From positions 1 to 64,000 of IMG/VR virus record IMGVR_UViG_3300044733_004704: a stretch of 64,000 bases of DNA. One strand, written 5' to 3'. The first letter of the stretch is position 1; every line of letters starts with the position of its first letter. The position numbers and the translations under genes were made by a program. The notes under the pieces are model-generated. The model ran no database searches. It was not told the DNA's origin and saw nothing but the letters and a program-made list of their open reading frames with translations. Positions 2,220-59,788 of this stretch are shown in pieces. The stretch comes from a virus.

Positions 2220-2510
2220 ATGAATTTACCAAGACTAATAAGTATAAGTGGACTACCATTTAGTTTACCTCCATTACCAGAGTACCAAGTATGGGCTATT
2301 AATCAAGACACTAGTCCTCCATCTTTAGTTATAGTAGAATTTCCGTATTCAAAACCCGTTGACACCGTTCCCTCCATCAATACTTTTAATCTGTTAAACA
2401 CCACACTAGAACAAACTTCTACATTACTCAATATTCAATTACAAACATTGGATAGTAGACTAACTACTATAGAAGGACAATTAAGCAATATTCCTTTAGC
2501 ATCATCATGA
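2220..2510 (+). CDS. Hypothetical small protein upstream of lectin-like fibre gene
   Basis: 96 residues, ATG at 2220. The N-terminal half is Pro-rich and hydrophobic (SGLPFSLPPLPEYQVWAI). The C-terminal half (residues 58-92) has a heptad-like Leu/Ile pattern (LLNTTLEQTSTLLNIQLQTL) that could form a trimeric coiled coil. The stop overlaps the ATG of the following Thr/Pro-rich gene (ATGA, 2507-2510). A short coiled-coil protein coupled to a fibre-like gene may be a connector, trimerisation partner or chaperone; this is inferred from context. No family recognised. Confidence 0.6.
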   Translation: MNLPRLISISGLPFSLPPLPEYQVWAINQDTSPPSLVIVEFPYSKPVDTVPSINTFNLLNTTLEQTSTLLNIQLQTLDSRLTTIEGQLSNIPLASS

Positions 2511-3922
2511 AAAATATTGTTAATATTAAATGTTGTCCTATCATACCTTCCCCCACGCCGACGATCACGCCGAGTATAACTCCGACAAATACCGCAACAC
2601 CAACTATTACACCGACAACGTCGGTTACGCCATCGGTATCTCCAACAAACACTGTTACTCCAACAGCAACGCCAACGGTGTCTCCATCTAACACAGTTAC
2701 TCCAACAGTGTCTCCGTCCAATACTGCAACGCCAACAGTTACTCCGAGTAATACTGGAACACCAACAGTTACTCCGAGTAATACTGCAACACCAACAGTT
2801 ACTCCGAGTAATACCGCAACACCAACTGTTACTACATCAAACACAGCAACACCAACAGTTACAGCAACACCAACTGTTACTACATCAAACACAGTAACAC
2901 CAACAGTTACGCCGACAGCTACCAAGACTAATACTCCTACTCCAACAAATAGCGTTACTCCAACAAATACAGCAACCTCAACTATTACACCTACCAAAAC
3001 TATTACGCCAACTCCTACGCCAACACTTCCACCTTTCCCAATAGGAGCTGATAGCGCTAATTTTAATAGTTGTGCTAATTGGAACAGTACAACGTTCGGT
3101 AATGTTACAACCGTTGGAACTAATGGTGGACCATCTGCTTATGGAACATATGATCAGACTGGAAATGCTTGGGAATGGAACGAAGCTATTATAGGCTCGG
3201 ATCGTGGAATTCGTGGCGGCAGCTTTTTCAGCATCGCGTTCTACTCGTCAAGATCCTTCAGGAACTCATATGACCCATCGTACGAGGATGGCAGTAACAG
3301 TTTTCGTCTCGCAAGCTCCCTTAACCCTTTAAGCCTTCCTTACTTTGTAAATATAGGGGATATTAATAATAGTAATGACTCTTTTACTGGCTATGGAAGT
3401 GTGAGTTACGTTTATAGTATCGGTCAATACCCTGTTACTAATTGTGAATATGTTGAATTCTTAAATGCTGTAGCAAGTACTGACACTTATAATTTATATA
3501 ATACCAGTATGGATAGTTATAATGGAGGCAATATAACCCGATCTGGCTCTAGCGGAAGCTACACCTACTCTGTGAAAACCAACATGGGGAACAAACCCGT
3601 AGTTTATGTTAGCTGGTTTGACTGCGCACGGTATTGTAACTGGTTACACAATAATAAGCCTTCTGGAAGTCAAGATAATACTACCACCGAAACCGGATCG
3701 TATACTCTAAATGGGGCAACATCTGGAGTTGGTATTACTCGTAATATTAATGCTACTTATTATATTCCTAGTGAAAATGAATGGTATAAAGCAGCTTATT
3801 ACAAAGGCCGTGGTACTAACGCAGGATATTGGACTTATGCTACTCAAAGTGATACCATAACATGTGTTACCGCTGACGCTAATGGTAATGGGCCAATAAA
3901 TAGTAACTATAGTTGTTCTTAA
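2507..3922 (+). CDS. Thr/Pro-rich protein with circularly permuted FGE-type C-lectin-like domain; candidate DGR target
   Basis: 471 residues. Residues about 14-172 are a Thr/Pro/Ser linker built on a ten-residue period ([10 protein letters not shown]). The rest resembles the FGE/sulfatase-modifying (SUMF1, PF03781) domain, but with halves swapped. Residues about 175-275 match the usual C-terminal half (TTVGTNGGPSAYGTYDQTGN, WEW, RGGSF, R..R, SFRLA). Residues 276-471 match the usual N-terminal half (GQYPVTNCEYVEFLNAV, KPVVYVSWFDCARYCNWL, YIPSENEWYKAAYYK, TYATQSDT). FGE-fold domains in phages are common receptor-binding modules and known DGR targets. Codons 236-270 form a GC-rich patch described separately. 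Likely a virion surface adhesin; formylglycine activity is not expected. Confidence 0.8.
   Translation: MKNIVNIKCCPIIPSPTPTITPSITPTNTATPTITPTTSVTPSVSPTNTVTPTATPTVSPSNTVTPTVSPSNTATPTVTPSNTGTPTVTPSNTATPTVTPSNTATPTVTTSNTATPTVTATPTVTTSNTVTPTVTPTATKTNTPTPTNSVTPTNTATSTITPTKTITPTPTPTLPPFPIGADSANFNSCANWNSTTFGNVTTVGTNGGPSAYGTYDQTGNAWEWNEAIIGSDRGIRGGSFFSIAFYSSRSFRNSYDPSYEDGSNSFRLASSLNPLSLPYFVNIGDINNSNDSFTGYGSVSYVYSIGQYPVTNCEYVEFLNAVASTDTYNLYNTSMDSYNGGNITRSGSSGSYTYSVKTNMGNKPVVYVSWFDCARYCNWLHNNKPSGSQDNTTTETGSYTLNGATSGVGITRNINATYYIPSENEWYKAAYYKGRGTNAGYWTYATQSDTITCVTADANGNGPINSNYSCS
2731..2850 (+). repeat. 30-bp tandem repeat in Thr/Pro linker
   Basis: Four consecutive 30-base units (starts 2731, 2761, 2791, 2821) of the form ACCAACAGTTACTCCGAGTA plus ten further bases encode the ten-residue period [10 protein letters not shown]. 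The first three differ at only a few bases, the fourth more. They lie in frame, so copy-number change would lengthen or shorten the linker without a frameshift. Confidence 0.85.
3212..3330 (+). other. Candidate DGR-type variable region inside the permuted domain
   Basis: By hand count, bases 3201-3320 hold 61 G/C of 120, against 40 of 120 for 3321-3440. The patch encodes the stretch from RGGSF to FRLA, which is the variable-loop segment in FGE-type DGR targets. Many codons end in C (TTC, AGC, ATC, TTC, TAC, TCC, TTC, AAC, GAC, TAC). This is the pattern left when AAC codons of an adenine-containing template are mutated at their first two bases. No template repeat or reverse transcriptase lies in the window, so this remains a candidate. 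Confidence 0.5.
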
Positions 3923-3943
3923 ATATTTTAGTAACCTAACCTT

Positions 3944-3955
3944 TGGTGTATATTA
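3944..3955 (+). promoter_or_regulatory. Shared intergenic motif TGGTGTATATTA (copy 1)
   Basis: This 12-base sequence lies in the 55-base gap after the lectin-like gene and recurs exactly at 16107-16118, in another of the larger gaps on this strand. It contains a TATATT that could serve as a -10 element, but no convincing -35 is seen. It may be a phage promoter element. Confidence 0.3.
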
Positions 3956-3977
3956 CTACATAATAAGGAATTATTTT

Positions 3978-4163
3978 ATGAATTTTTTCGATAAGTTAGC
4001 ATTAAATAGACTAATTAGTATAATACTTAATTTTATACTAAATATAGCAAAACTAATAATACCTAAACAAAAAGATAAATTGGATGATATAAATCCTTTT
4101 CCTCCTATTCCAAAACCACTATTAAAACGTAAAAAATTATTTCCAAGAGATAAAAATGAATAA
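3978..4163 (+). CDS. Hypothetical small basic protein
   Basis: 61 residues. The start ATG at 3978 lies 9 bases after TAAGGA. Residues about 5-30 (KLALNRLISIILNFILNIAK) form an amphipathic or membrane-associated helix. The C-terminal half is Pro/Lys-rich (PFPPIPKPLLKRKKLF). The end overlaps the next gene by 8 bases, and a shared 12-base motif lies just upstream. The neighbours are small membrane proteins, so a membrane-linked role is likely, but no family is recognised. Confidence 0.5.
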   Translation: MNFFDKLALNRLISIILNFILNIAKLIIPKQKDKLDDINPFPPIPKPLLKRKKLFPRDKNE

Positions 4164-4386
4164 ATTAATATTACCAATTTTATTCGTATCATTATTTTTT
4201 ACTTCGATAAAATATAACGGATCATCAACAGCTCCTGTTATTTTATCCGGAGCTATAGTTAAACATATAGGTAATGAACCAATTAAAAAATACAAAAGAA
4301 AAGAGTGTCCAGTTTGTAAAGGAAGTGGAAAATATTTGAGTGGAGACGGAATAAAAATGGTTGATTGTGGATATTGTTTACCTTAA
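4156..4386 (+). CDS. Small exported or membrane protein with DnaJ-like zinc-binding knuckle
   Basis: 76 residues. An N-terminal hydrophobic segment (LILPILFVSLFFTSI, residues 4-18) looks like a signal peptide or anchor. The C-terminus carries C51-P-V-C54-K-G-S-G and C71-G-Y-C74, the C-x-x-C-x-G-x-G pattern of DnaJ-type zinc knuckles, which probably binds one zinc ion. It overlaps the upstream gene by 8 bases and is followed after 15 bases by another small membrane protein. Function unknown; disulfides instead of zinc are possible if the domain is outside the cytoplasm. Confidence 0.6.
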   Translation: MNKLILPILFVSLFFTSIKYNGSSTAPVILSGAIVKHIGNEPIKKYKRKECPVCKGSGKYLSGDGIKMVDCGYCLP

Positions 4387-4401
4387 TAGAAAGACAAAAA
4401 T

Positions 4402-4791
4402 ATGCAAGTAGATCCTAATCTGGAACGTATTGCTCAAAAGATTATAGACAAAGCAAACATTAAAAATAATAACTATGGTTTTGATCCTATAACAATAATT
4501 ATAGTAATCGGTGTTATATTAAGTCTTATAAGAGTAATTCAAGAATGTAGAAGCAAAAGACGTAAGAATGATAAAATGAGCGAAGCTTTAGACTTAAGAC
4601 ATACTATAGTTAATTTAACTATTAAAGATAGCTGGTTAAATAATTATAGACTAAACAAAATATTAAAACAACACTTGAGCAAAAAACAATATCAACAATA
4701 CGGAGTTAGTTTAAAAAATGCCATCATGGAAGTTGGTAAGAATCTCGATGATAACGAATCCTTAACACTTCTGGAGGCTACCAATGTTTAA
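4402..4791 (+). CDS. Hypothetical single-pass membrane protein
   Basis: 129 residues. There is a short N-terminal helix, then a membrane segment at about residues 28-45 (DPITIIIVIGVILSLIRVI), a basic stop-transfer stretch (CRSKRRKNDK), and a helical soluble tail of about 80 residues. The positive-inside pattern predicts a cytoplasmic C-terminus. The ribosome site is weak (AGAAAGACAAAA). It overlaps the next membrane protein gene by 8 bases, so the two are probably co-translated. Family not recognised. Confidence 0.6.
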   Translation: MQVDPNLERIAQKIIDKANIKNNNYGFDPITIIIVIGVILSLIRVIQECRSKRRKNDKMSEALDLRHTIVNLTIKDSWLNNYRLNKILKQHLSKKQYQQYGVSLKNAIMEVGKNLDDNESLTLLEATNV

Positions 4792-5032
4792 TCTGCTTAT
4801 ATGGATAGTTTATGGTTTATTTGTTGGTTCTTTAGCAAAAGCTATAGTTCCTATTAATTTACGATTAGGTTTTTTTCAAACTGTTGCTCTCGGTGTTGCT
4901 GGCTCGTATATGGGAGGCGCAATACTTTATATTTTAGGAACATATGATAGTTTGAGTCCATCAGGAATATTTATGGGCGTGGCTGGTGGCATATTAAGCC
5001 TTATATTATATAATAAATTTGTTAATAAATAA
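4784..5032 (+). CDS. Small three-helix membrane protein resembling GlsB/YeaQ/YmgE
   Basis: 82 residues, almost wholly hydrophobic, with about three membrane helices (IWIVYGLFVGSLAKAIVP; VALGVAGSYMGGAILYIL; GIFMGVAGGILSLILYN). Length, Gly-rich helices and layout recall the GlsB/YeaQ/YmgE (transglycosylase-associated) family. That resemblance is by pattern only. The ATG at 4784 follows TCTGGAGG, a strong ribosome site inside the end of the previous gene. A role in envelope alteration or lysis is possible but unproven. Confidence 0.55.
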   Translation: MFNLLIWIVYGLFVGSLAKAIVPINLRLGFFQTVALGVAGSYMGGAILYILGTYDSLSPSGIFMGVAGGILSLILYNKFVNK

Positions 5033-5047
5033 AAATCGGGATAATCA

Positions 5048-6625
5048 ATGAGTGTTCCAGAATATTCTGTATTAGGAAATTGTAATAGTGCAAACTATGA
5101 TGGTACGGCTGTATGGCTACCAGGAACAGAGAATAATGGTAATGTCACAAGCGTTGGCGCAAATGGCAGACCTAGTTTTTATGGCACCTTCGATCAAAAT
5201 GGTAATGTATGGGAAATTATAGATTACCAAATACCATCATCACAAAGTATATTATATTATGGTGGTTCTCATAATTCAAGATTAATAGATCTTACAAATC
5301 TTTATGGCGTTACTCCGCCAATAGGAAGCTCATTACAAGGATTCGGATTTAGGATTTGTGCAAATTCTGGTATCTCAGATAGTAACTTTGTAACAGTATC
5401 TGGTTCTAATATTGGAGATACAAATAGAAATCATTATGGAGATGATCTTGGCGAAGTTAATTATGAATATAAAATATCCAAATTTACTATAACAAATGAA
5501 GAATATATCTTATTTTTAAATAATGTGGCAAGAGTTCCTGCTTTAAATAATGCTTTGGCCGTACCAGCTAATAGTATATGGCCCTATTTAGGCGCTATGA
5601 CCACAAATATTCAAGGTGGTATAGTAGTAGCCGGTACTAATCCTATAGTATATACCGTTAAAGATAATATGGCTAAAAAACCAGTTATTTATATTAATTG
5701 GTATAGCGCGGCTAGATATGTTAATTGGTTAAGTAATGGCAAACCTAACAGCGGCGGTTTAGCAGTCAATTCGACAGAAACAGGAATATATTCTCTTAAT
5801 TTCACCAACCCTCTTCCTAAACCGACAGCCTCAAATAAAACATATTATTGGATTCCTGATCGCGATGAGTGGGTAAAAGCAGCCTATTATGATCCGACAA
5901 AAAATGGAACAGGCGGATATTGGTTATACGCTACACAAAGCGACACAGAACCATACTCTATAACGGTTAATGTTAATAATGGAATAGCAAACAATACTTT
6001 TGGTAGTCCTGGAGCATGTCTTAGCCCAACACCCACACCAAGTATAACAAGTAGTCCAACGCCCACTCCTTCAACAACCCCATCCTTAACTCCATCTTGT
6101 ACACCAACATTAACCACAACAACAACTCTTACAGCAAGCGCTACCCCAACACCCACACTCACGCCTTCTGTTACAAATACTCAAACTCCGACTCAAACAA
6201 AAACATCAACTCCTACTCGTACACCTACAAAAACACCCACTAGAACGGTTACTAGAACTCAAACACCAACGCCAACAGTAAGCTTTACATCCTCTCACAC
6301 GCCAACACCAACACCAACATATACTCCAACTCCTACTTCTACTAAAGCTCTATGTGATACATTTAAAATTGGACAACTACAATATAATCCTAATATTTAT
6401 AGTAATGATGACATCAAAGTATTATATAAGGGTTTTATTTTAGAAGGACGTATCAATGATAAAATTATGTTAGTAAAAGAAATGCCGAATGTATCACAAA
6501 CTCCTACTCCATCAGTAACAAAAACCTCCACCCCAACACCCACCGTCACATTAACACCTACAATAACCCCAACATCTACCACCACATTAACACCAACAAT
6601 TACCCAAACACCAACTAACCAGTAA
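5048..6625 (+). CDS. Second permuted FGE-domain protein with C-terminal Thr/Pro-rich tail
   Basis: 525 residues. Residues 1-115 match the usual C-terminal half of an FGE/sulfatase-modifying domain (VTSVGANGRPSFYGTFDQNG, YGGS, GFGFRICA). Residues about 116-322 match the usual N-terminal half (YKISKFTITNEEYILFLNNV, KPVIYINWYSAARYVNWL, WIPDRDEWVKAAYYD, YATQSDT). This is the same circular permutation as in 2507-3922. Here the Thr/Pro/Ser linker (about 325-440 and 480-525) follows the domain, with a small non-repetitive segment (about 440-480) between the blocks. The loop matching the candidate variable region is AT-rich like its surroundings, so it looks non-variable. The gene end overlaps the first glycan-cluster gene by one base (TAATG). 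Confidence 0.8.
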   Translation: MSVPEYSVLGNCNSANYDGTAVWLPGTENNGNVTSVGANGRPSFYGTFDQNGNVWEIIDYQIPSSQSILYYGGSHNSRLIDLTNLYGVTPPIGSSLQGFGFRICANSGISDSNFVTVSGSNIGDTNRNHYGDDLGEVNYEYKISKFTITNEEYILFLNNVARVPALNNALAVPANSIWPYLGAMTTNIQGGIVVAGTNPIVYTVKDNMAKKPVIYINWYSAARYVNWLSNGKPNSGGLAVNSTETGIYSLNFTNPLPKPTASNKTYYWIPDRDEWVKAAYYDPTKNGTGGYWLYATQSDTEPYSITVNVNNGIANNTFGSPGACLSPTPTPSITSSPTPTPSTTPSLTPSCTPTLTTTTTLTASATPTPTLTPSVTNTQTPTQTKTSTPTRTPTKTPTRTVTRTQTPTPTVSFTSSHTPTPTPTYTPTPTSTKALCDTFKIGQLQYNPNIYSNDDIKVLYKGFILEGRINDKIMLVKEMPNVSQTPTPSVTKTSTPTPTVTLTPTITPTSTTTLTPTITQTPTNQ

Positions 6626-25166: not shown

Positions 25167-27155
25167 ATGATTATAACTTATTTCCGTAGTTCGTCTTATA
25201 ATGCCCATTCTATGTGCGAACAACAATATTTTTTTGAATATGTACTAGGATGGAGGGGTCCAAGTGGACAAAAGGCGGATAAAGGAACAATAGTCCATAA
25301 AGTTTTAGAAATTCTTGCCATGATCAAACAAGGTCAGCAAGATAAATTATCTCATATAAACGACGACGAATTCTTAGGTCTTATAGATATAAATGACTAT
25401 AGTCTTAATACCATAATAGAAAAAGTATACAAGCATTATAGTACCGCTAATAGTCATCATACTTGGACTCTAAAAGACTATAAGGACTGCTATAATTGGG
25501 TTTACAAGGCTATAGAATTTAATGGCGGTATGTTTGATCCTAGAAATCGCACCATTCTTAGACCAGAACAACACTTTGATTTGGTAATAGAAAAACCATG
25601 GGCTAAATACGAGTATAATATTAATAATCAAAAACTAGATGGATATTTGGGCTTAAAAGGCACTATAGATCTTATAACTTTGGCTAATGATAATACTATT
25701 GAGGTCATAGATTGGAAAGGATTGCCATTAGATACAAAATTACCTACTCTTGACGGATGGACAACAATTGCAGATATAAATGTGGGATGTAATGTCTTTG
25801 ATCAATACGGTAATATATGTCGCGTTGTTGGAAAATCAAAAGTCAAAACAAAAAAATGTTTCAGAGTAACTTTTGATGACAAAACATCGGTAATTTGTGA
25901 CGATGAGCATTTATGGAAATTATCTAATGGTGAAACGGTATCTATACAGGATCTAGCTATTGGCGATACTATTAATGTGACAAAACCATTAAAATGTAAT
26001 GAACAATCCCTACCAATAGATCCTTATCTATTAGGAGTCTGGTTAGGAGACGGAAGAAATAGAGGTTGCGAGATTAGTGGCAATGATACTGAAATTTTTG
26101 AAGAAATACAAGCAAGAGGTTATGAGCTAGGAAAAATTCAAAATGATAAAAGATCAAAAAATAAGACAGTATCGATCCTAAATGTGACAAAAATACTAAA
26201 ATCTTTAAATCTATTGAATAATAAACATATACCAAAAATTTATTTGAGAGCATCTTTTCAACAAAGGCTAGACTTACTAAGGGGTTTGATGGATACAGAC
26301 GGAAATGTAAATCCAATTAGAAAACAAACTGTGTTTACTTCTTGTAATAAAAAACTATCCGACGATGTTAAAGACCTACTTTTAACCCTTGGGCAAAGAC
26401 CGAATCAAGCGTGTATTAAAAGAGATACAAATTACAAAAAAAACGTAATCATATATCCTATTTCGTTTCGTCCAATTGACATTAATCCTTTTCTATTGAA
26501 CAGGAAAAAAGAACTTGTGGATGTAAATTGGGGATCTGGAAGATCTAGGGTTAGACGAGTTTCTAAAATAGAAGAATCGATTATACAAAAAACTCAATGC
26601 ATTTCCGTAGACAGTCCAGACAATACTTATCTGTGTACAGAAAATTATATTCCAACACATAATACTGGACGAAGACTAGATTGGGCAACCGGTCAAGAAA
26701 AAACCCAAGAAAAGTTAGAAAAAGATCCACAACTTAAAATTTATCACTATGCTATTAAAAAATTATATCCGCATATTGAAAATGTAATTTTTTCTATCTA
26801 CTTTATTAATGATGGTGGTCCTTTTTCTATGGTATTTCATGATAGCGATCTCATAGACACAGAAAATATGTTGAGAGAAAAATTTGATATTATTAAGAAA
26901 ACAAAACGTCCTAAGCTTAATAAAACATGGATGTGTAATAAATTATGCCATTTCGGTAAAACCACTTTTGAAAATACTAGCATACAACCTTTGGAGGAAT
27001 ATAGAGATGGACAAATATGTCAAAAAGGATCTGTCATGACAAAGTGCGAACAAGTCAAGCACGACCTTGAACTTTATGGGATCGATGCTACAATGAGTAT
27101 GTACAAACACCCGAATCATTCTTTTGGATCTTACAAAGCGCCAGGATCAGTATGA
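25167..27155 (+). CDS. Cas4/RecB-type PD-(D/E)XK nuclease precursor with intein
   Basis: 662 residues before splicing, 347 after removal of residues 185-499. The extein is a RecB/Cas4-like nuclease: SSYNAHSMCEQQYFFEYV (the CxxC-less front), KGTIVHKVLEIL (RecB helix with His), LKGTIDLITL (catalytic Asp), EVIDWK joined to TGRRLDW (the E-x-D-x-K-T-G motif), and DPQLKIYHYAIKKLYP (motif with Gln and Tyr). C-terminal Cys residues (MCNKLCHFG and KGSVMTKCEQ) could be part of an iron-sulfur or zinc site. The intein lies between the catalytic Lys184 and Thr500, so activity requires splicing. The role is probably recombination or DNA end processing. Confidence 0.85.
   Translation: MIITYFRSSSYNAHSMCEQQYFFEYVLGWRGPSGQKADKGTIVHKVLEILAMIKQGQQDKLSHINDDEFLGLIDINDYSLNTIIEKVYKHYSTANSHHTWTLKDYKDCYNWVYKAIEFNGGMFDPRNRTILRPEQHFDLVIEKPWAKYEYNINNQKLDGYLGLKGTIDLITLANDNTIEVIDWKGLPLDTKLPTLDGWTTIADINVGCNVFDQYGNICRVVGKSKVKTKKCFRVTFDDKTSVICDDEHLWKLSNGETVSIQDLAIGDTINVTKPLKCNEQSLPIDPYLLGVWLGDGRNRGCEISGNDTEIFEEIQARGYELGKIQNDKRSKNKTVSILNVTKILKSLNLLNNKHIPKIYLRASFQQRLDLLRGLMDTDGNVNPIRKQTVFTSCNKKLSDDVKDLLLTLGQRPNQACIKRDTNYKKNVIIYPISFRPIDINPFLLNRKKELVDVNWGSGRSRVRRVSKIEESIIQKTQCISVDSPDNTYLCTENYIPTHNTGRRLDWATGQEKTQEKLEKDPQLKIYHYAIKKLYPHIENVIFSIYFINDGGPFSMVFHDSDLIDTENMLREKFDIIKKTKRPKLNKTWMCNKLCHFGKTTFENTSIQPLEEYRDGQICQKGSVMTKCEQVKHDLELYGIDATMSMYKHPNHSFGSYKAPGSV
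25719..26663 (+). mobile_element. Intein (class 3 type) with LAGLIDADG homing endonuclease
   Basis: 315 residues. Block A is GLPLDTKLPTLDGWTTIADI, with Gly rather than Cys/Ser at position 1. Block B is CDDEHLWKL, with His248 and Trp250. Two dodecapeptides are LLGVWLGDG (about 288-296) and LLRGLMDTDGNV (about 367-378). Block F is CISVDSPDNTYL, beginning at Cys478. Block G is THN at 497-499, followed by Thr500. A missing first nucleophile together with Trp (block B), Cys (block F) and Thr (+1) is the W-C-T signature of class 3 inteins, in which the block F Cys starts splicing. The endonuclease motifs look intact, so the element may still home. Confidence 0.88.
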
Positions 27156-28450
27156 CCTATTCTGTTCTTCATTGTCATTCGCATTTTAGTCTTTTGGATG
27201 GTCTTAATCGTCCAGAACAAATAGCTAATAGATGTTCTAAATTAGGCATTAATTCTTGTGCCTTAACCGATCATGGTAACATCGCCGGCTCTGTACAGTT
27301 CTATCAGAAAATGCGAAATAAAAATATAAAACCAATTCTTGGTTGTGAATTATATATATGTGAAGATGATCCGAGTATACAAACAAAAGAAAATGCTTCA
27401 TTATCACATTTTTTGGTATTGGCGAAAAATTTGCAAGGATGGAAAACCTTAATAAAGATTGTTTCCGAATCTAACAGACCCGATTACTTTTATCATAAGC
27501 CGCGTTTAAGTTTGGCGAAATTAGCAGAAATACTGGATGGTAACATTATAGGTATTTGTGGACATTTGGGATCAACATTAGCAGATAAGATATTATGCGA
27601 CGAATCCAAAGCTATAGATAATGGATTATCTTTTGTGGACTATATGAAAACTATATTTGGCACTGATAATTTTTTTCTAGAGACACAACTATTTGATCAA
27701 GCATATTTAAAACAACAAACATATTTGACAGATACAATAAGAAGAATTTCTGAATTAAGTAAAACAAAAGCGGTATGCACACCGGATGCTCATTATTGCG
27801 AACAAGACGATGCTATAGATCAAAGAATATTACTCTGTAATAATCTTAAAACAACATTATCAGATATAAATACTAAGATGCTTCATAATCAATCTGTACC
27901 TATGGAGTGTTTCTTTAAAAGTGACAAATACTATATTCTGTCTCCGGAAGAAATGAAAACTCTTCATAGCGATGAAGAGATAGAAAACACTTTATTTGTG
28001 GATAGTCTAATAGAAAATTTTGATATACTATCACCACCTAAATTACCTAAATTCGAATGTCCCGAAGGATTCTCTCCGGATGAATATTTAAGAGAATTAT
28101 GTAGAAAAGGTTGGAAAAATAGAATTATACCGAATATTGACAAATCACAACACGATATTTATGTTGATAGAATAAAATATGAACTACAGGTTTTGCAAAA
28201 TGCTGGGCTTAGTAGTTATTTTCTAATTGTTCAAGACATACTAAGATATGTTAAAAATAATAATTGGTTAGCAGGACCAGGACGAGGAAGCGCAGCCGGA
28301 TGCTTGGTTTCTTATTTAATAGGTATTACAGATATAGACCCTATTAAACACGAATTACTATTTGAAAGATTTTATTCCGATGGCAGGAATGTAAAAGAAC
28401 ACATATCTTTTCCGGAATTTTCTATACAAACATTTAAAAATGGTGTATAA
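27152..28450 (+). CDS. dnaE: DNA polymerase III alpha, N-terminal piece (PHP domain and start of palm)
   Basis: 432 residues. The PHP domain has HCHSHFSLLDG (His7, His9, His11), ALTDHGNIAG (His41) and PDAHYCEQDDA, so its metal ligands appear largely kept. From about residue 374, AGPGRGSAAGCLVSYLIGIT then DIDPIKHELLFERF is the conserved entry to the palm. The normal DnaE continues directly to the catalytic PDxDxD segment, but here the frame runs through 20 extra residues and stops. The catalytic Asp residues are in the next piece (29261-30145). A homing endonuclease gene fills the break. It overlaps the nuclease gene upstream by four bases. Confidence 0.88.
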   Translation: MTYSVLHCHSHFSLLDGLNRPEQIANRCSKLGINSCALTDHGNIAGSVQFYQKMRNKNIKPILGCELYICEDDPSIQTKENASLSHFLVLAKNLQGWKTLIKIVSESNRPDYFYHKPRLSLAKLAEILDGNIIGICGHLGSTLADKILCDESKAIDNGLSFVDYMKTIFGTDNFFLETQLFDQAYLKQQTYLTDTIRRISELSKTKAVCTPDAHYCEQDDAIDQRILLCNNLKTTLSDINTKMLHNQSVPMECFFKSDKYYILSPEEMKTLHSDEEIENTLFVDSLIENFDILSPPKLPKFECPEGFSPDEYLRELCRKGWKNRIIPNIDKSQHDIYVDRIKYELQVLQNAGLSSYFLIVQDILRYVKNNNWLAGPGRGSAAGCLVSYLIGITDIDPIKHELLFERFYSDGRNVKEHISFPEFSIQTFKNGV

Positions 28451-28472
28451 ACAGTATAATTCCGGAGGCAAT

Positions 28473-29291
28473 ATGAAAGCTAAAATAAAAGACTATAAAA
28501 ATAAGAGTTATAATTTACTTACTATAATAACTTTAGTTTCGGATAGTAAAGGAGAAACAATTGCTAAGTGTAAATGTAAATGCGGCAATGTCTGTTATAA
28601 GAAACTATCTATGATAAAGATTAACCATGTTAAAAGTTGTGGTTGTTTAGCAAAATCAACTAGATTTACTAAAAATAGTAAAAAAAAATTATTAAATGAT
28701 TTCTCTAAATTAGATGCCGCATCAGCTTATTGGCTTGGTTTTATTTTTGGCGATGGAAATATTAGTGATAGTAATAAGCTACAATTATGCTTGGGATCAG
28801 AATCAAAAAAACATTTGATTAAATTTTCTAAATTTTTAATAGGCTCTAATATAGTAAAAGACTACGATAATAGGTGTACATTTCAATTTACTAGTGATAT
28901 TTTAGCAAATAATATATCAAAATATGGTATTATACCAAGAAAAACATGGTATAGTACTTTAAAATTACCGTCGGATCAATTATTATGGCCAGATTTTATA
29001 AGAGGATATTGGGATGCTGATGGATGGGTTAGTATAAAAAAACAAACCAATAAAAATAAAGTCTACACTGGTTACAACATAGGTATATGTTCATATCTTC
29101 CAGAAAATTTGGAAACAGTATCCAAAGCCTTACCTGTAAAATATAAAAAACCAACAAAAATAAAAAATAGAGACTTGTATCAGTTAATATACCAAAACAA
29201 GAGTGAAATTAAAGTTATAGCAAAATATTTACTAAACAATCATTTATATATAGACTACAAATGGAAAAAAATTCTATACTTACTAGACTAG
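28473..29291 (+). CDS. LAGLIDADG homing endonuclease inside the split polymerase gene
   Basis: 272 residues from ATG 28473, which follows a strong ribosome site (GGAGG at 28464-28468); an in-frame start at 28440 is less likely. The N-terminal domain has a Cys-rich DNA-binding module (CKCKCGNVC, residues 33-41, and SCGCL, 56-59), as in phage HNH/AP2-type homing proteins. Two LAGLIDADG helices follow: AYWLGFIFGDGNIS (about 86-98) and FIRGYWDADGWV (about 175-186), with both acidic catalytic positions present. It is in another frame from the polymerase and overlaps piece 2 by 31 bases. It is either a free-standing endonuclease or sits in an intron. Confidence 0.85.
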   Translation: MKAKIKDYKNKSYNLLTIITLVSDSKGETIAKCKCKCGNVCYKKLSMIKINHVKSCGCLAKSTRFTKNSKKKLLNDFSKLDAASAYWLGFIFGDGNISDSNKLQLCLGSESKKHLIKFSKFLIGSNIVKDYDNRCTFQFTSDILANNISKYGIIPRKTWYSTLKLPSDQLLWPDFIRGYWDADGWVSIKKQTNKNKVYTGYNIGICSYLPENLETVSKALPVKYKKPTKIKNRDLYQLIYQNKSEIKVIAKYLLNNHLYIDYKWKKILYLLD

Positions 29292-30145
29292 TACATGAGA
29301 TTAAAAGCCAGCCTATAATCGAAAGGTTAGAACAAGAAAAAAATAATAGATTTCTTGAACATGAATGCTCTATAGTTCTTTCGGCTCCAGAAAATATATC
29401 ATACTATAATCATATAATAGTAAATAAAAATATTTTATCCGAAAACACTATTAATAGTTATATAATGTGGATATATGGTATTGTCGATCAGCTTGATAAT
29501 ACTCGTCCAATACAAAGCATTCCAGCCAGAATACAAATGCCAGATATCGATATAGATATCCCAATAGATAAACGAGAACAAGTATTAGAATATATAAAAA
29601 GTAAATATGGACATGGCAAAGTATCACAAATGATTACTTTTAATACTATGAAAGGTAGAGGAGCATTAAAAGATGTGCTAAGAGTATATGGTAATATATC
29701 TTTCGAAGAAATGAATTCTATTACCAAATTTATTCCTGACGAAGCAAAAATAGCCGACGAGCTTCAAGAGATGAAAGAAGATACCGGAGAAGCCTCAATT
29801 ATTAGATGGGCCTTAGAGAATAATACAGACAAGCTTAAAGAATGGTGCTACATAGCAGAAGATGGTTCGTTGGCTGGTCCATTGTCAAAAAGATTTGAAC
29901 AGGCCATAAGGCTTGAAGGAACAAAATCCAACCAAAGCAAACACGCTGCTGGTGTAATAATAGGTACCGAAGATCTTGCATCTCTGTGTCCTATGGTCTA
30001 TGATAATAGAAATGATCAGCTGATAGCGGGCATGGAGATGAATGATCTAGAGAGTTTGGGTTTAATTAAATTTGATATATTGGGTATAGCTTATTTGGAC
30101 AAAATCATGTCTGTATCAGAATACCTAAAAAACGGAGAACTATAA
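29261..30145 (+). CDS. dnaE: DNA polymerase III alpha, middle piece (catalytic palm)
   Basis: 294 residues. It contains all three catalytic aspartates: MPDIDIDIP (Asp95, Asp97) and GLIKFDILGIAYLD (Asp272). KREQVLEYIKSKYG, VSQMITFNTMKGRGALKDVL and QSKHAAGVIIG are typical palm/fingers blocks. Residues 1-90 (for example IKSQPIIERLEQEKNNRFLE) do not match the usual DnaE junction and may be phage-specific. No ribosome site precedes ATG 29261, inside the endonuclease gene. This suggests translational coupling, another start, or RNA splicing from 27152-28450. The stop overlaps the next small gene (TAATG). Confidence 0.85.
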   Translation: MEKNSILTRLVHEIKSQPIIERLEQEKNNRFLEHECSIVLSAPENISYYNHIIVNKNILSENTINSYIMWIYGIVDQLDNTRPIQSIPARIQMPDIDIDIPIDKREQVLEYIKSKYGHGKVSQMITFNTMKGRGALKDVLRVYGNISFEEMNSITKFIPDEAKIADELQEMKEDTGEASIIRWALENNTDKLKEWCYIAEDGSLAGPLSKRFEQAIRLEGTKSNQSKHAAGVIIGTEDLASLCPMVYDNRNDQLIAGMEMNDLESLGLIKFDILGIAYLDKIMSVSEYLKNGEL

Positions 30146-30327
30146 TGTTAACAAAAACATTAGACCAAGTTGCTGTGGGCGAAAACTTTAAAGCTAATAA
30201 TGTAGAATATACTAAGATCCAAGAAGTTAGAGTAAGTTGTTGCAGAAGCGTTAATTGTCATGTTGCAACAGATAGTAATCAAAGGACTTTTTTCCCAGGA
30301 AACACAGTAGTGGAGACAAATGGCTAA
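30145..30327 (+). CDS. Small conserved phage-type protein
   Basis: 60 residues. The pattern LDQVAVGENFKANNVEYTKI, then two adjacent Cys in VSCCRSVNCHVA and a final FFPGNTVVET, resembles a small beta-rich protein family common in phages with no assigned function. Cys residues at about 31, 32 and 37 could bind metal. It begins on the stop of the middle polymerase piece and overlaps the exonuclease gene by 8 bases, so it is part of the insert dividing polymerase pieces 2 and 3. Confidence 0.6.
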   Translation: MLTKTLDQVAVGENFKANNVEYTKIQEVRVSCCRSVNCHVATDSNQRTFFPGNTVVETNG

Positions 30328-31021
30328 TTTACAAAAAATTTGTGTATTTGATTTAGAAACGGACGGGGCTAATCCTGACCTTTGTAGCCCCGTTCAAATT
30401 GCCTCTCTGATAATAGATCCATATAAATTAGAAATTATCAAAGACTCAGAATTTAATATTAATCTAAAACCATCCATATTGGATGAAAAACCTGATTATA
30501 TATATGATGATAGTGATGTTCTTGATTTCCATGCCAAGGTTAGAGGATGCGAGAAAACCAAAATATTAGAGGACTGGAAATCTTATCAAAATCAGGATAA
30601 TGGATGGAAAATGTTCGTATCTTATTTAGAGAAATATCATATAAGATCGGATAAAAAATCTTGTTTTACAGCACCAATAGCTGCTGGATACAATATAAAT
30701 AGATTTGATCTTAGAATCATAGAAAGACTAAGTACGAAATATAATAATGTCAATAAGGAGGGAAGAACATCTCTTTTTTATCCACGAGACGTTATAGATC
30801 TAATGAATGTTATATTTTATTGGTTTGAAGGAAACAATGAACTAAAAAACTATACATTAGATAATGTTAGAGAATACCTAGGTCTTGGCAATAGTGGATC
30901 TCATGATGCGCTAAATGATGTAAGAGCCACGGCTGATATTCTTATTAGATTTATGAAACTTCATAGAAATCTTGGTAATAAGGTTAAATTCAAAAACGCG
31001 TTCGCCACAGCGTCCGCATAA
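30320..31021 (+). CDS. DnaQ-type 3'-5' exonuclease (DEDDh)
   Basis: 233 residues. Exo I is CVFDLETDGANPD with Asp11 and Glu13. Exo II-like DLRIIERL lies mid-protein. Exo III is GSHDALNDVRATADILI with His195 and Asp200, the DEDDh arrangement. It is most like the proofreading epsilon subunit of DNA polymerase III. It sits between the middle and C-terminal pieces of the split alpha subunit, so the four proteins are likely to form one polymerase-exonuclease complex. The gene overlaps its upstream neighbour by 8 bases, and the next piece starts five bases after its end. Confidence 0.87.
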   Translation: MANLQKICVFDLETDGANPDLCSPVQIASLIIDPYKLEIIKDSEFNINLKPSILDEKPDYIYDDSDVLDFHAKVRGCEKTKILEDWKSYQNQDNGWKMFVSYLEKYHIRSDKKSCFTAPIAAGYNINRFDLRIIERLSTKYNNVNKEGRTSLFYPRDVIDLMNVIFYWFEGNNELKNYTLDNVREYLGLGNSGSHDALNDVRATADILIRFMKLHRNLGNKVKFKNAFATASA

Positions 31022-31026
31022 TATTT

Positions 31027-32640
31027 ATGAATCATCACTATACGTTTGATTGTGGTTGTAAATTTAAGGTATTGGACTATACCCAGGATGGTATTCCTAG
31101 AATAGATTTCGATGGCAAACTAGAAAATCTGAATCTAGAATGTTCCAAAACATGGGATATGATAGCACAAGGAAACACAAAAGGCGTTTTCCAATTAGAG
31201 TCCAGACTAGGCTCTAGCATGTCCAAAAAACTTAAACCACAAAATATAGAGCAGCTTTCTGCATTGATTAGTATTATGCGACCAGGATCATTAGAGGCAT
31301 ATAGGGAAGGCAAAAGCATCAGTGATCATTATATAGATAAAAAAAATGGTCTAGAAGAATTAGATTACTTCCATCCTTCTCTTGAGCCTTCATTAAAATC
31401 CACCTATGGCGAGATGATTTATCAAGAACAGGCCATGCAAATCGCTCAGGCGGTGGCCGGGTTCGATCTTCAAGAAGCCGATATGCTTCGTAAGGCCATA
31501 GGCAAAAAGAAACCAGAAGAAATGGCAAAAATCAAAGTTAAATTCAAAGATGGTGTTAAAAAACTTAATATTGTCTCAGAAGATGAGAGCGAAGAAATTT
31601 TTGGTTGGATAGAAAAAAGTCAAAGATATAGCTTTAACAAGAGCCACGCTGTAAGTTATGCTATGAATGCATATTCATCAGCATATGCAAAAGCACACTT
31701 TGCCAAAGTATTTTTTGCATCATATTTAAAGTTCGCAAAAGACAAGATGGATCCCCAAAAAGAGATCAAGGAATTAATTAGAAACGCGACAGAAATGGAT
31801 GTTACTGTTTGCGTTCCAGATTTAAGAAAACTTAATAAACACTTTACTATAAACGATGATAAAATTTATTTTGGTTTAACAGATATAAAAGGTGTTGGTT
31901 ATTCGGTATATGATAAGATTATGGAAATAGTCAAAAATATGGATCTTAATTCTATATCATGGTATGGATGCTTAGTAAAATTGCTCAATAAAATAAACTC
32001 TACAGCCGCTAAGGCACTAATATCGTGCGGAGCCCTTGATTATTATCATATGTCGCGCACACAAATGTTGTTTGAATATGACATAATATCAGAATTAACA
32101 TCTAGAGAATTAGATCTTTTAGATATAAACCAAAAACATCTAGGACAAGTTTTAGAGAATCTGCTGACTAATAGTAAGATTAATATCAAGCGAAAAACTA
32201 ATATACAAAATTTGATTAAACTATATAAAAATCCACCATACTCACTAAACGATAAAATAGAATGGTTATCTGACACAGAAAATGCGTTGCTTGGTGCGTC
32301 TATTACCTGTTTTAAAATAGACTCGTACGACATTAGTATGACCAACTGTGATTGCAAAATGTTTAAACATACCAATAATGTTAAAAATATTATTTTAGCT
32401 GGTGAAATTAGTAATATAAATTTTGTTAAGACAAAGAATGGGAAAAATGCTGGTGCAGAAATGGCTTTTGTCACAATAGAGGATCAATACGCATCCTTGG
32501 ATTCCGTTATCCTATTTCCTGATCAATTGTCTAAATATCGAAACTATCTATTCGAAGGAAATGTACTAATATTTCTAGGCAATAAGAGTCCTAAAAAAGA
32601 CTCTTTTATAGTAGAAAAATGTTTTATACCAAGATCTTGA
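31027..32640 (+). CDS. dnaE: DNA polymerase III alpha, C-terminal piece (fingers, HhH, OB)
   Basis: 537 residues. It starts with a short Cys-containing segment (FDCGCKFKVLDY) and enters the conserved region at KTWDMIAQGNTKGVFQLES (about 42-59). It goes on through ISIMRPGSLEAYREGK, TYGEMIYQEQAMQIAQAVAG, LRKAIGKKKPEEM, and YSFNKSHAVSYAMNAYSSAY. A helix-hairpin-helix-like FGLTDIKGVGYSVYDKI follows, and an OB fold ends the protein (IILAGEISNINFVKTKNGKN, MAFVTIEDQYASLDSVILFP). It lacks the catalytic Asp residues, which are in 29261-30145. The stop codon TGA forms part of the -35 hexamer of the ssb promoter. Confidence 0.9.
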   Translation: MNHHYTFDCGCKFKVLDYTQDGIPRIDFDGKLENLNLECSKTWDMIAQGNTKGVFQLESRLGSSMSKKLKPQNIEQLSALISIMRPGSLEAYREGKSISDHYIDKKNGLEELDYFHPSLEPSLKSTYGEMIYQEQAMQIAQAVAGFDLQEADMLRKAIGKKKPEEMAKIKVKFKDGVKKLNIVSEDESEEIFGWIEKSQRYSFNKSHAVSYAMNAYSSAYAKAHFAKVFFASYLKFAKDKMDPQKEIKELIRNATEMDVTVCVPDLRKLNKHFTINDDKIYFGLTDIKGVGYSVYDKIMEIVKNMDLNSISWYGCLVKLLNKINSTAAKALISCGALDYYHMSRTQMLFEYDIISELTSRELDLLDINQKHLGQVLENLLTNSKINIKRKTNIQNLIKLYKNPPYSLNDKIEWLSDTENALLGASITCFKIDSYDISMTNCDCKMFKHTNNVKNIILAGEISNINFVKTKNGKNAGAEMAFVTIEDQYASLDSVILFPDQLSKYRNYLFEGNVLIFLGNKSPKKDSFIVEKCFIPRS

Positions 32641-57259: not shown

Positions 57260-59788
57260 TTATAAGACAAAAGTACCGTCTCCATCTGTTATTCTCCATC
57301 CGTAAGATACCAAAGCTATTTTTGCACTATTTCCATTTATACCGCCGCTATTAGTATCTGATCTAGCATTACCAAAATTTATATTAATATTATTTAAGAA
57401 AGCATTCTTATTACTATTAAAGTAATTTAATAATTTATTATAATTAGTATTACTTAACTTTGTGCCTCTTAATATTTTATCCAGTGTGGCATTTGTTATA
57501 GAACTTATATTCCAACCGGTAAAATCTTTATTAAGAGAGATGCAACCATCGAATAAACCATTTATAGATCCTAAATTAGGTGGAATTGGAGAATCCGAAA
57601 GACCTCTGCATCCGACTGGTAGTGAATCCTCAGTAGAGACTAAATTAGCAAACATATGTGCTAAACCCGTAATAGCTCCCCAATTATTTACTTTTATAAT
57701 TCCAGAATTTATTTCAGCATTTTTACTATCAGATATAACAGCAAGCTGATATGAATTGTTGGGCTGATTAATAGTTGTAAATCCGTTCTGAGTAGTTTTA
57801 AATCTTAAACTTAAATTGTTGTTTGCAAGTATGTTTATGGTCCTTAGTTTAATATCAAATACAATATAATTTTTTGTATATATATTCATGAAGCTTTGAT
57901 AATTATGATCAAATCCTTGTGGAATCTGTTGTATAAGTGGACTAGATTGTAGTAAAACTAATAACTTATTTTTATTCTTAGATATCAAACTTTTAACAAA
58001 CCCCGAGGATTGTTGATAACTGTTTTTTTGAATCCAGTTTGTTAGTGGTTTATTAGACCAACTAATTCCACCATCATAGCTAACAAAAACACCATGCCCT
58101 GTAGAACAGGTTATGGTGCTACCATCACTAGAAATAGATACTGAGTTGTAGTTGTTATTATCCCTTAAATAGGGATTTGTCCAACTTACACCTCCATCAT
58201 TACTTAAATATACTAGATTAGAATCACAAGCTACTATTCGTAATCCATCATCAGAGATAGCTATACTCTTCCAATCCCTAATTGATTCTGTTGTGGTCCA
58301 AGTCGATCCTGAATCAGTCGATATATATATATTAGTATTATCTCCAACTGCAACTATTTTATTTGTCTGCGAAGCTATGGCTATGTCTGTCCAGAATCTA
58401 CTTGATTCTTTTGGTGTCCAACTACTATAATTTCCATTTTGACTAACGTATATATTTCCATTTTCGACTATTCCAACAGCAAAGGATCCATCGTTAGATA
58501 AGCGCACCTTTCTCCAATTTCTATTAGTAGCATCAACCAAACTAAAAGAAATACCATTATTATTACTATAATAAATTCCTCCATTAAAAATGGAAACAAG
58601 GACTATTATACCATCATTAGAACAAGTTACTGAGGAAACATCTGGATTAGAAACCGGTAGACTAGAAGCTAAAGATCCATTCTTAAAAAGTCCTCCATTG
58701 ATGACGCCTATTCCTTCGTAAGTAACAAGATTGCTACGTTTTCTGCATGACACAAAAATATTAGATCCATCACTACTCATACATGCATCCGAATAATTTT
58801 CAGAATCCTTAATCACGAATGTACTAAAGCCACCAATTTGAGCATGAGCACTAGCTATTCTGGCTTCGTTATAAGAATAATTTTTAGTTACTACTGTATT
58901 TGAAGAAAATACCCGTTGATCATTATCTCCAAAATCTATAGTTCCAACACTATTGCTCAATATTTCTATTTGAATTGGTGAAGTTGAATCATGCGTGATA
59001 GAAAATGTACCAGGAGCAATACTTGTGGGTGTCGGAGTGATTGTTGGGGTGGTTGTCGGTGTCGGAGTAGCCGCAGAAGTTCTTGTCGGTGTCGGAGTAG
59101 CCGCAGAAGTTCTTGTTTGTGTTGGAGTATTTGTGGGTGTGGTTGTTTGTGTCGGAGTATTTGTGGGTGTGGTTGTTTGTGTCGGAGTATTTGTGGGTGT
59201 GGTTGTTTGTGTCGGAGTATTTGTTGGTGTGGTTGTTTGTGTCGGAGTATTTGTTGGTGTAACAGTAGTTGTTGGTGTTATGCTAGGAGTTACGCTAGGA
59301 GTAGCAGTATTACTAGGTGTTACACTAGGTGTAACAGTATTACTGGGGGTTATGCTAGGAGTAACAGTATTACTAGGAGTAACAGTCGGCGTTGTTGTAA
59401 CAGTTGGAGTAAAGCTTGGAGTAACAGTAGGAGTAACAGTAGGAGTAGCTGTTACGGATGGTGTTGGAGTCGGACTAGGATATGCTGGTTCGCAACTATC
59501 AAAATTATCACAAACCACAAAACTACTATGAACAAGAGTAGATTCATTATCTAAATCCACAGCTTTAATTTCTAATAAAACTCCATTAATTCTAATATCT
59601 TTGGTTAGTACCACAAAAACATTCTGAATAGTATTATTTGCTCTAAACTCTAAAGTATTTTTATCAAGATATGCTTCAAAATTTTTATTTGTATAATGCA
59701 AAGTATAAGACACTTTGTAGTTGTGACAAACTATTAAGTTTTGTAATTGCGCTTTAATAATATCTGTTGTGTATACTGGATTGCTCAT
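57260..59788 (-). CDS. Fibre-like protein: Thr/Pro linker, Asp-box propeller, DUF285-like C-terminus
   Basis: 842 residues. Residues 1-100 are a beta-type N-terminal domain, perhaps the virion anchor. Residues about 105-255 are a Thr/Pro/Ser linker ([10 protein letters not shown] units, then [10 protein letters not shown]). Residues about 320-625 have at least four Asp-box (BNR-like) loops: [27 protein letters not shown] and VSYDGGISW, each followed by a strand, suggesting a beta-propeller of the sialidase/sortilin type. Residues about 730-842 ([33 protein letters not shown]) match the DUF285/BspA-like surface repeat. It is likely a receptor-binding or tail-fibre protein. Confidence 0.75.
59057..59260 (-). 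repeat. 30-bp tandem repeats in Thr/Pro linker of fibre-like gene
   Basis: Units of 30 bases start at 59121, 59151, 59181 and 59211, with a partial fifth at 59241 to about 59260; copies at 59151 and 59181 are identical on the + strand (GTCGGAGTATTTGTGGGTGT and ten more bases). Just before them (about 59057-59115) a related 30-base unit occurs twice. They encode [10 protein letters not shown] and [10 protein letters not shown] repeats. Sameness at wobble bases suggests recent expansion. Confidence 0.88.

Follow-up and report, generated by a model that had tools for sequence, protein, structure and literature searches.

The fold shared by formylglycine-generating enzymes (FGEs) and C-type lectins is known from the FGEs themselves, from CarF, and from variable lectins such as TvpA of Treponema denticola and Mtd of a Bordetella phage. 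In AvpA, which also has the lectin fold, the N- and C-terminal segments form an antiparallel strand pair that is characteristic of the fold, according to the part of the report used here (PMC5006420). FGE genes have been reported as metabolic genes in Pseudoalteromonas phages, and in the part of that source used here the word 'permutations' carries its statistical sense (PMC10232697). We found no report of a natural circular permutation of this fold in the open-licence literature, preprints excluded. Here we describe two proteins from IMG/VR virus record IMGVR_UViG_3300044733_004704 in which the two halves of an FGE-type C-type-lectin domain (PF03781) stand in swapped order; both are encoded within the window, which comprises bases 1–64,000 of the 131,022-base record. 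We consider it probable that these are phage surface proteins, of the tail or decorating the virion, which carry a genuinely permuted and non-catalytic lectin binding module.

Order, predicted fold and distribution of the domain

The initial annotation of this stretch had proposed that the blocks which usually close the FGE domain come first in both proteins, and profile searches bear this out (Table 1). The full-length proteins match PF03781 at 57.7 bits (Protein 1, in which the family is matched as two stretches) and 34.2 bits (Protein 2), above the cut-off of 23.3. When the halves were searched apart, the expected pair of out-of-order partial matches was found for all three copies of the domain in this phage, the third of which (L081/L082) lies outside the window proteins within a 1189-amino-acid (aa) minus-strand frame. 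In Protein 1 the first half matches family positions 161–253 (E 0.0016, 18.5 bits) and the second matches 36–129 (E 1.4e-13); in Protein 2 a weak match to 159–189 (E 0.1, 12.6 bits) precedes one to 35–127 (E 1.4e-7); and in the third copy 160–218 (E 0.003) precedes 34–123 (E 6.3e-6). The leading halves of all three copies are individually under the family cut-off. Profiles of the separate halves, with Protein 1 and relatives of it as seeds, find one domain copy in each window protein, and score the first half at 153 bits in Protein 1, a value that is high by construction, and at 85 bits in Protein 2. By profiles and model alignments alike, the segment order along the chain departs from the usual PF03781 order. 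Also as proposed, the threonine/proline (T/P)-rich linker precedes the domain in Protein 1 and follows it in Protein 2.

Structure prediction points the same way. With an alignment of 60 relatives (A2), AlphaFold folds the permuted domain in its native order into one compact domain with reversed segment order, at a predicted local distance difference test score (pLDDT) of 96.6 and a predicted template modelling score (pTM) of 0.94. A usual-order viral relative (L078), modelled with 46 sequences (A3), reaches a pLDDT of 92.5 and a pTM of 0.92; the diverse members of both alignments, which also served for the cysteine counts below, were picked by script or by hand. Searched against the PDB with Foldseek at E<=0.001, the usual-order model returned 75 chains and the permuted model none. 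Under a DALI-like aligner the usual-order model aligns across its span of 1 to 277/278 with CarF (5aoh, Z 22.1), TvpA (2y3c, Z 21.9) and the FGEs (Z 19.2–19.9), whereas the top Z of the permuted model is 6.5 among 44 listed rows. Most of these rows (29 of the 44) begin at permuted-model residues 67–104 and fall mainly on the N-terminal parts of FGE-fold chains, and a further 10 are confined to residues up to 100 and fall mainly on C-terminal parts. For example, residues 87–282 of human FGE (1y1e) correspond to permuted-model residues 102–295, while the usual-order model covers residues 92–370 of the same chain; conversely, residues 347–449 of 8u42 correspond to permuted-model residues 9–98 (root-mean-square deviation 1.8), and residues 177–307 of 6vqp to 7–100. 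Both halves thus fall mostly on the matching parts of the FGE fold, at middling Z. The remaining five rows count against a permutation, as they span permuted-model residues of about 18–294 in order, at Z 3.4–5.4; no good full-length alignment in the canonical direction, which the initial annotation had named as grounds for rejecting its proposal, was found beyond these low-Z rows. Because order-dependent programs match the two halves apart, the pattern is the one expected of a circular permutation. On the predicted model and the profiles, the domain has the marks of a circular permutation, in that a single compact unit is built from halves that correspond, in exchanged order, to those of one usual domain.

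The swapped order is common to one diverse phage group among the viral relatives searched. Scans of viral contigs gave 78 loci for the Protein 1 domain, 78 for a usual-order viral copy (partly on the same contigs) and 9 for Protein 2, and a genome scan with an alignment of the N-half (A1), of which the best 80 loci were kept, led mostly to Planctomycetota and Verrucomicrobiota as judged by record titles. Adjacent half pairs, gathered from all frames of these loci with a separate profile for each half, yielded 222 distinct domain sequences, 88 permuted and 134 in the usual order. All 88 permuted sequences are on viral records. Genomes supplied 102 of the usual-order sequences, among them one under an archaeal title (L140), and viral contigs supplied the other 32; every genome-derived sequence among the best 80 genome loci has the usual order. 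Near-complete copies of both halves are present in 85 of the 88 permuted sequences, in 94 of the 102 usual-order ones from genomes and in 26 of the 32 from viral contigs; some of the viral usual-order pairs are of doubtful pairing within long arrays (L045, L055) or incomplete (L247). Some frames hold two to five permuted copies, and one viral protein joins a permuted to a usual-order domain of the same family (L027/L164; L164 1332–6707). At the other extreme, a 315-aa stop-to-stop frame (L012) holds a single permuted domain, which argues against the alternative of two incomplete or tandem domains. Since 88 viral sequences share the order and one stands alone in so short a frame, we do not attribute the swap to chance or assembly error. 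Among isolated phages, nothing matched the permuted domain at E<=0.001 or the usual-order relative at E<=0.1; a BFVD search returned nothing at E<=0.001, and a plasmid search returned one record, aligned with 51% of the query and 28% identical to it.

New ends, cysteine pairs and linkers

The models suggest where the chain was cut and how its old ends were joined. In the usual-order model DSSP assigns residues 183 and 192 as single strand residues, and their sequence equivalents in the permuted model, residues 278 and 9, are likewise assigned to strand. We infer that the two residues of each pair face each other as the strands of a small hairpin; with paired strand residues beside the cut, the cut would therefore lie in the turn of that hairpin, within the interval from YATQSD to TVG and before the N(S/T)AN(Y/F) motif. 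The break had been predicted between these two blocks, which holds, although it falls roughly 10–20 residues beyond YATQSD and not directly after it. The permuted model also contains strands at residues 95–96 and 106–109, linked by nine residues. We read these strands as the ones that open and close the usual fold, with the old ends fused. Given the pairing of the terminal strands in the lectin fold, as described in the part of the AvpA report used here (PMC5006420), such a fusion would be easy. Pattern-based estimates of junction length, obtained for 73 of 88 sequences, proved noisy, and no use was made of them.

Cysteines beside the new ends tend to occur together. Within the 60-row permuted alignment, domain positions 15 and 279 are both cysteine in 31 rows, with position 15 alone in 2 and position 279 alone in none (Fisher 4.6e-15, uncorrected for relatedness), while six control pairings of cysteine columns 139, 199 and 203 with either position gave values from 0.0085 to 0.12. 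Protein 1 carries this pair as Cys189 and Cys453. On the best tree described below, the two cysteine traits change 14 and 15 times. The equivalent stretch of the usual-order alignment has any cysteine in 1 of 46 rows, and a wider count, in which 107 of 134 loops were parsed and 27 were not, found any in 8 and two in one. Protein 2 has a different arrangement, with Cys12 and with Cys324 just before the linker, and this recurs in a group of relatives. A cysteine just before NSAN (type B) is present in 14 of the 80 parsed sequences (of 88), 12 of which also have one just before the T/P linker. Among the 34 sequences that lack Cys279, the second type B cysteine accompanies the first in 12 of 13 and occurs without it in 8 of 21 (Fisher 0.003), an association that is only suggestive because the rows are related. 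These observations are consistent with a predicted disulfide between the two end-flanking cysteines, which would take over from the peptide link that the cut removed. Several points weigh against such a clamp. Three of the controls also show weak association (two with Cys15, p 0.03 and 0.03; one with Cys279, p 0.0085). A phylogeny-aware test gave p 0.25 from 3 independent pairs on well-supported branches, and with only three such pairs it cannot reach significance. Both cysteines are missing from 27 of the 60 permuted rows, the third copy of this phage has neither arrangement in its sequence, and the corresponding loop of L202, a viral domain in the usual order, holds two cysteines.

Flanks with more than 50% threonine, proline and serine are far commoner around permuted domains (26 of 60 on the upstream side, 34 of 66 on the downstream side) than around usual-order ones (1 of 131 and 1 of 44, respectively). 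The most variable stretch of the permuted domain is residues 76–90 (3.27 bits), and its usual-order counterpart is also the most variable there (2.69 bits). We take this stretch to be where the lectins of diversity-generating retroelements (DGRs) vary. With that equivalence, the usual C-terminal variable loop, which the initial annotation expected a permutation to move into the middle of the chain, has its counterpart within the leading third of the domain.

Origin of the permuted order and competing explanations

We take the permuted order to be derived, because the solved FGE-fold structures matched here and all genome loci sampled have the usual order. For phylogenetic analysis, sequences were restored to the usual order and their halves aligned separately; the 222 distinct pairs were reduced to 204 by coverage and overlap filters and to 197 by thinning, of which 92 were used for IQ-TREE. 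A FastTree of the 197 rows (81 permuted) has one change of order, at branch support 81, and the best-resolved tree, from IQ-TREE with 92 rows (41 permuted) and 192 end-trimmed columns, likewise has one change (support 98/90, 98% of 200 bootstrap trees). A route for this change is suggested by bacteria. When the permuted profile was compared with 44 bacterial genomes, near-full-length matches appeared in four, among the matches listed. All four stretches encode usual-order domains in tandem: three read N-C-N-C, and the remaining one reads N-C-N before it runs into masked sequence. The inner C-N junction of these proteins, for example FRLASGANSLSGLNYELVKIGHPLN, resembles the phage junction FRLASSLNPLSLPYFVNIGDINN. 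Tandem forms with phage-like inner junctions make an origin by tandem duplication and loss of the outer halves plausible, with such bacterial tandems as plausible intermediates.

The carriers of the domain appear to belong mainly to one lineage. The terminase of the phage was matched in 18 of 49 chosen viral records at 54–100% identity, two of the matches being partial at record ends; by domain type, these are 18 of 47 permuted-domain and 0 of 2 usual-order records. Among the permuted records of at least 150 kb, 11 of 13 match it, and 29 of all 47, many of them short, showed no match. Among isolated phages, 43 records carry a terminase match, all below 60% identity, with 15 listed at 22.8–31.4%. 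The permuted domain thus seems mainly to track one uncultured large-phage lineage. In the 197-row FastTree, the usual-order copies of three viral contigs group together with domains from a single Planctomycetota metagenome-assembled genome, a hint of exchange with, or infection of, Planctomycetota-type bacteria; the phage terminase was not matched in that genome, an empty answer that shows little.

The strongest competing explanation is that the permutation is a frozen accident, a single ancestral event that spread by descent and recombination and brought no functional advantage. The single origin in the best tree and the distribution of the terminase both fit such a founder effect, and the most variable region corresponds in the two orders. 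Against it, the cysteine pair and T/P-rich flanks accompany the permuted form as if the ends had adapted, though lineage could explain both. We regard a frozen accident as quite possible, a little short of probable. Repeated, independent origins of the order in phages are unlikely, although some trees favour them and weigh against a single origin: a FastTree of the 192 core columns with all 197 rows has two changes of order, a quick tree of the N-half (134 columns) has two, and one of the C-half (58 columns) has three, at least two of which are forced by starred branches. In addition, the IQ-TREE bootstrap had yet to converge (0.982), some long branches were joined, and support for a single change hinges on using both halves. 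Both trees of the combined halves that were described first nevertheless give one change, and the C-half tree draws on 58 columns. A single origin is the best reading, if not a proven one. An exchange of halves between neighbouring copies or chains, as in a domain-swapped tandem or oligomer, would suit relatives in which one frame has as many as five copies (L034), and is very improbable given a single-chain model with a pTM of 0.94, the lone domain of the 315-aa frame and the single copy in each window protein. An enzymatic role, formylglycine-generating or sulfoxide-synthase-like, has the above-cut-off PF03781 match in its favour and is the least credible reading, since NCBIfam enzyme models give Protein 1 scores far short of cut-off and Protein 2 no match, and two cysteines within 16 residues after RGG, where we assume the active-site pair of FGEs to sit, occur in 0 of 34 parsed permuted rows (the motif was unparsed in 26 of 60). 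The usual-order relatives likewise lack this pair (0 of 37 parsed rows), so that the absence of catalysis is not tied to the permutation, a point that tells against our interpretation.

Under the preferred interpretation, the permuted order would have arisen once, in a large-phage lineage, when a usual domain was tandemly duplicated and the outer halves were then lost. The old termini would be fused through a short loop and the new ones would lie in the cut hairpin turn, where a disulfide between the two neighbouring cysteines would stand in for the lost turn. Long T/P-rich linkers may display the domain on the virion, and its variable face may bind a ligand on the host surface; with the linkers attached at the cut hairpin instead of the usual ends, a different face would point outward. 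The fuller version of this proposal, a C-type-lectin platform found only in viruses that combines the hairpin cut, fused old ends, covarying cysteine pairs in two placements, T/P strings and diversification for host binding free of reverse transcriptase, is one that we offer tentatively, as rather doubtful in its entirety. If a permuted module is correct, it would represent an evolutionary event that can be traced, with tandem forms of the ancestral type persisting in bacteria. It would also make it possible to test whether a disulfide takes the place of a missing peptide link, and would exemplify how fold searches with fixed order under-score a phage domain of the adhesin type, as the Foldseek counts illustrate.

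Function, genomic setting and comparison with known systems

The company of the domain is consistent with a predicted role as a non-catalytic, modular phage adhesin that binds its ligand from the virion. The third copy adjoins a 2991-aa frame, which we read as a tape measure protein, and tail-fibre, portal and terminase matches lie farther along. RCC1 repeats are present in three of six scanned permuted-domain proteins, in one chain with permuted domains (L010 1653–7010, L011 4995–9746 and L016 1314–8237), and the first of these additionally has LamG and DUF642 domains. The domain was also considered as the variable protein of a DGR, a candidate that we rejected: the reverse transcriptase family RVT_1 was found in neither the phage's own record (0 of 1) nor the related viral records (0 of 49, possibly fragments), and no search for template and variable repeats was made.

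Other features of the window are recorded here as observations in their own right. The DNA polymerase III alpha gene is seemingly split into three frames (27152–28450, 29261–30145 and 31027–32640). A LAGLIDADG endonuclease frame (28440–29291) separates the first two, and a frame of 233 aa (30320–31021), which we read as exonuclease-like, separates the last two; no Rfam intron reached threshold in the region 27152–32640. Upstream, at 25167–27155, a PD-(D/E)XK nuclease frame contains an intein-like insertion with LAGLIDADG, which by our reading starts with Gly, not Cys or Ser, and closes with HN before Thr. Six minus-strand frames of 2600, 1958, 653, 842, 1008 and 303 aa occupy 41387–63769, five of which have no PHROG match at E<=0.01, and BNR-like repeats under the Pfam cut-off lie at 57260–59788. 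Neither RNA families at gathering score nor tRNAs were found in the 64-kb window.

Table 1. Positions in the window of the two permuted-domain proteins and their parts
Feature	Position	Strand	Basis
Protein 1, 471 aa: T/P-rich linker, then permuted FGE-type C-lectin domain (residues 175-471)	2507..3922	+	ORF (open reading frame), Pfam, half profiles
Protein 1 T/P/S-rich linker, residues about 14-174	2546..3028	+	sequence
Protein 1 domain, first part = usual C-terminal half (PF03781 161-253)	3029..3343	+	profile searches
Protein 1 Cys189 (domain Cys15), one side of predicted end clamp	3071..3073	+	alignment counts
Protein 1 domain, second part = usual N-terminal half (PF03781 36-129)	3344..3919	+	profile searches
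Protein 1 Cys453 (domain Cys279), other side of predicted end clamp	3863..3865	+	alignment counts
Protein 2, 525 aa: permuted domain N-terminal, then T/P-rich linker	5048..6625	+	ORF, Pfam, half profiles
Protein 2 usual C-terminal half, placed first	5078..5368	+	half profile 85 bits; Pfam weak, E 0.1
Protein 2 Cys12, possible alternative (type B) end clamp	5081..5083	+	suggestive only
Protein 2 usual N-terminal half, placed second	5408..5998	+	half profiles, Pfam
Protein 2 Cys324 just before T/P-rich linker, possible Cys12 partner	6017..6019	+	suggestive only
Protein 2 T/P/S-rich linker (approximate bounds)	6023..6352	+	sequence

The nearest relatives of the phage domain in genomes are usual-order FGE-domain proteins of Planctomycetota, Verrucomicrobiota and other groups, with 45–58% identity in the N-half among the best 80 loci. 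These proteins share sequence blocks with the phage domain, but they keep the usual order with the hairpin turn intact, and T/P-rich flanks and clamp cysteines are rare in them. FGEs and CarF have the same fold, as seen across the usual-order relative and in the separate halves of the permuted model; unlike the FGEs, the phage domain is permuted and has no FGE cysteine pair in the parsed rows. TvpA and Mtd (1yu3, Z 11.7 with the usual-order relative) belong to the same fold class, and the region that we take to correspond to their variable one is also the most variable in the phage domain. The phage domain differs from these lectins in its reversed halves and in the lack of RVT_1 from the viral records surveyed, which may be fragments. 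A natural circular permutation of a binding module is reported, by the title of that work, in another family, the calcium-dependent carbohydrate-binding modules (Montanier et al. 2010), and it offers a parallel in kind to the rearrangement proposed for the FGE-type domain of this phage.

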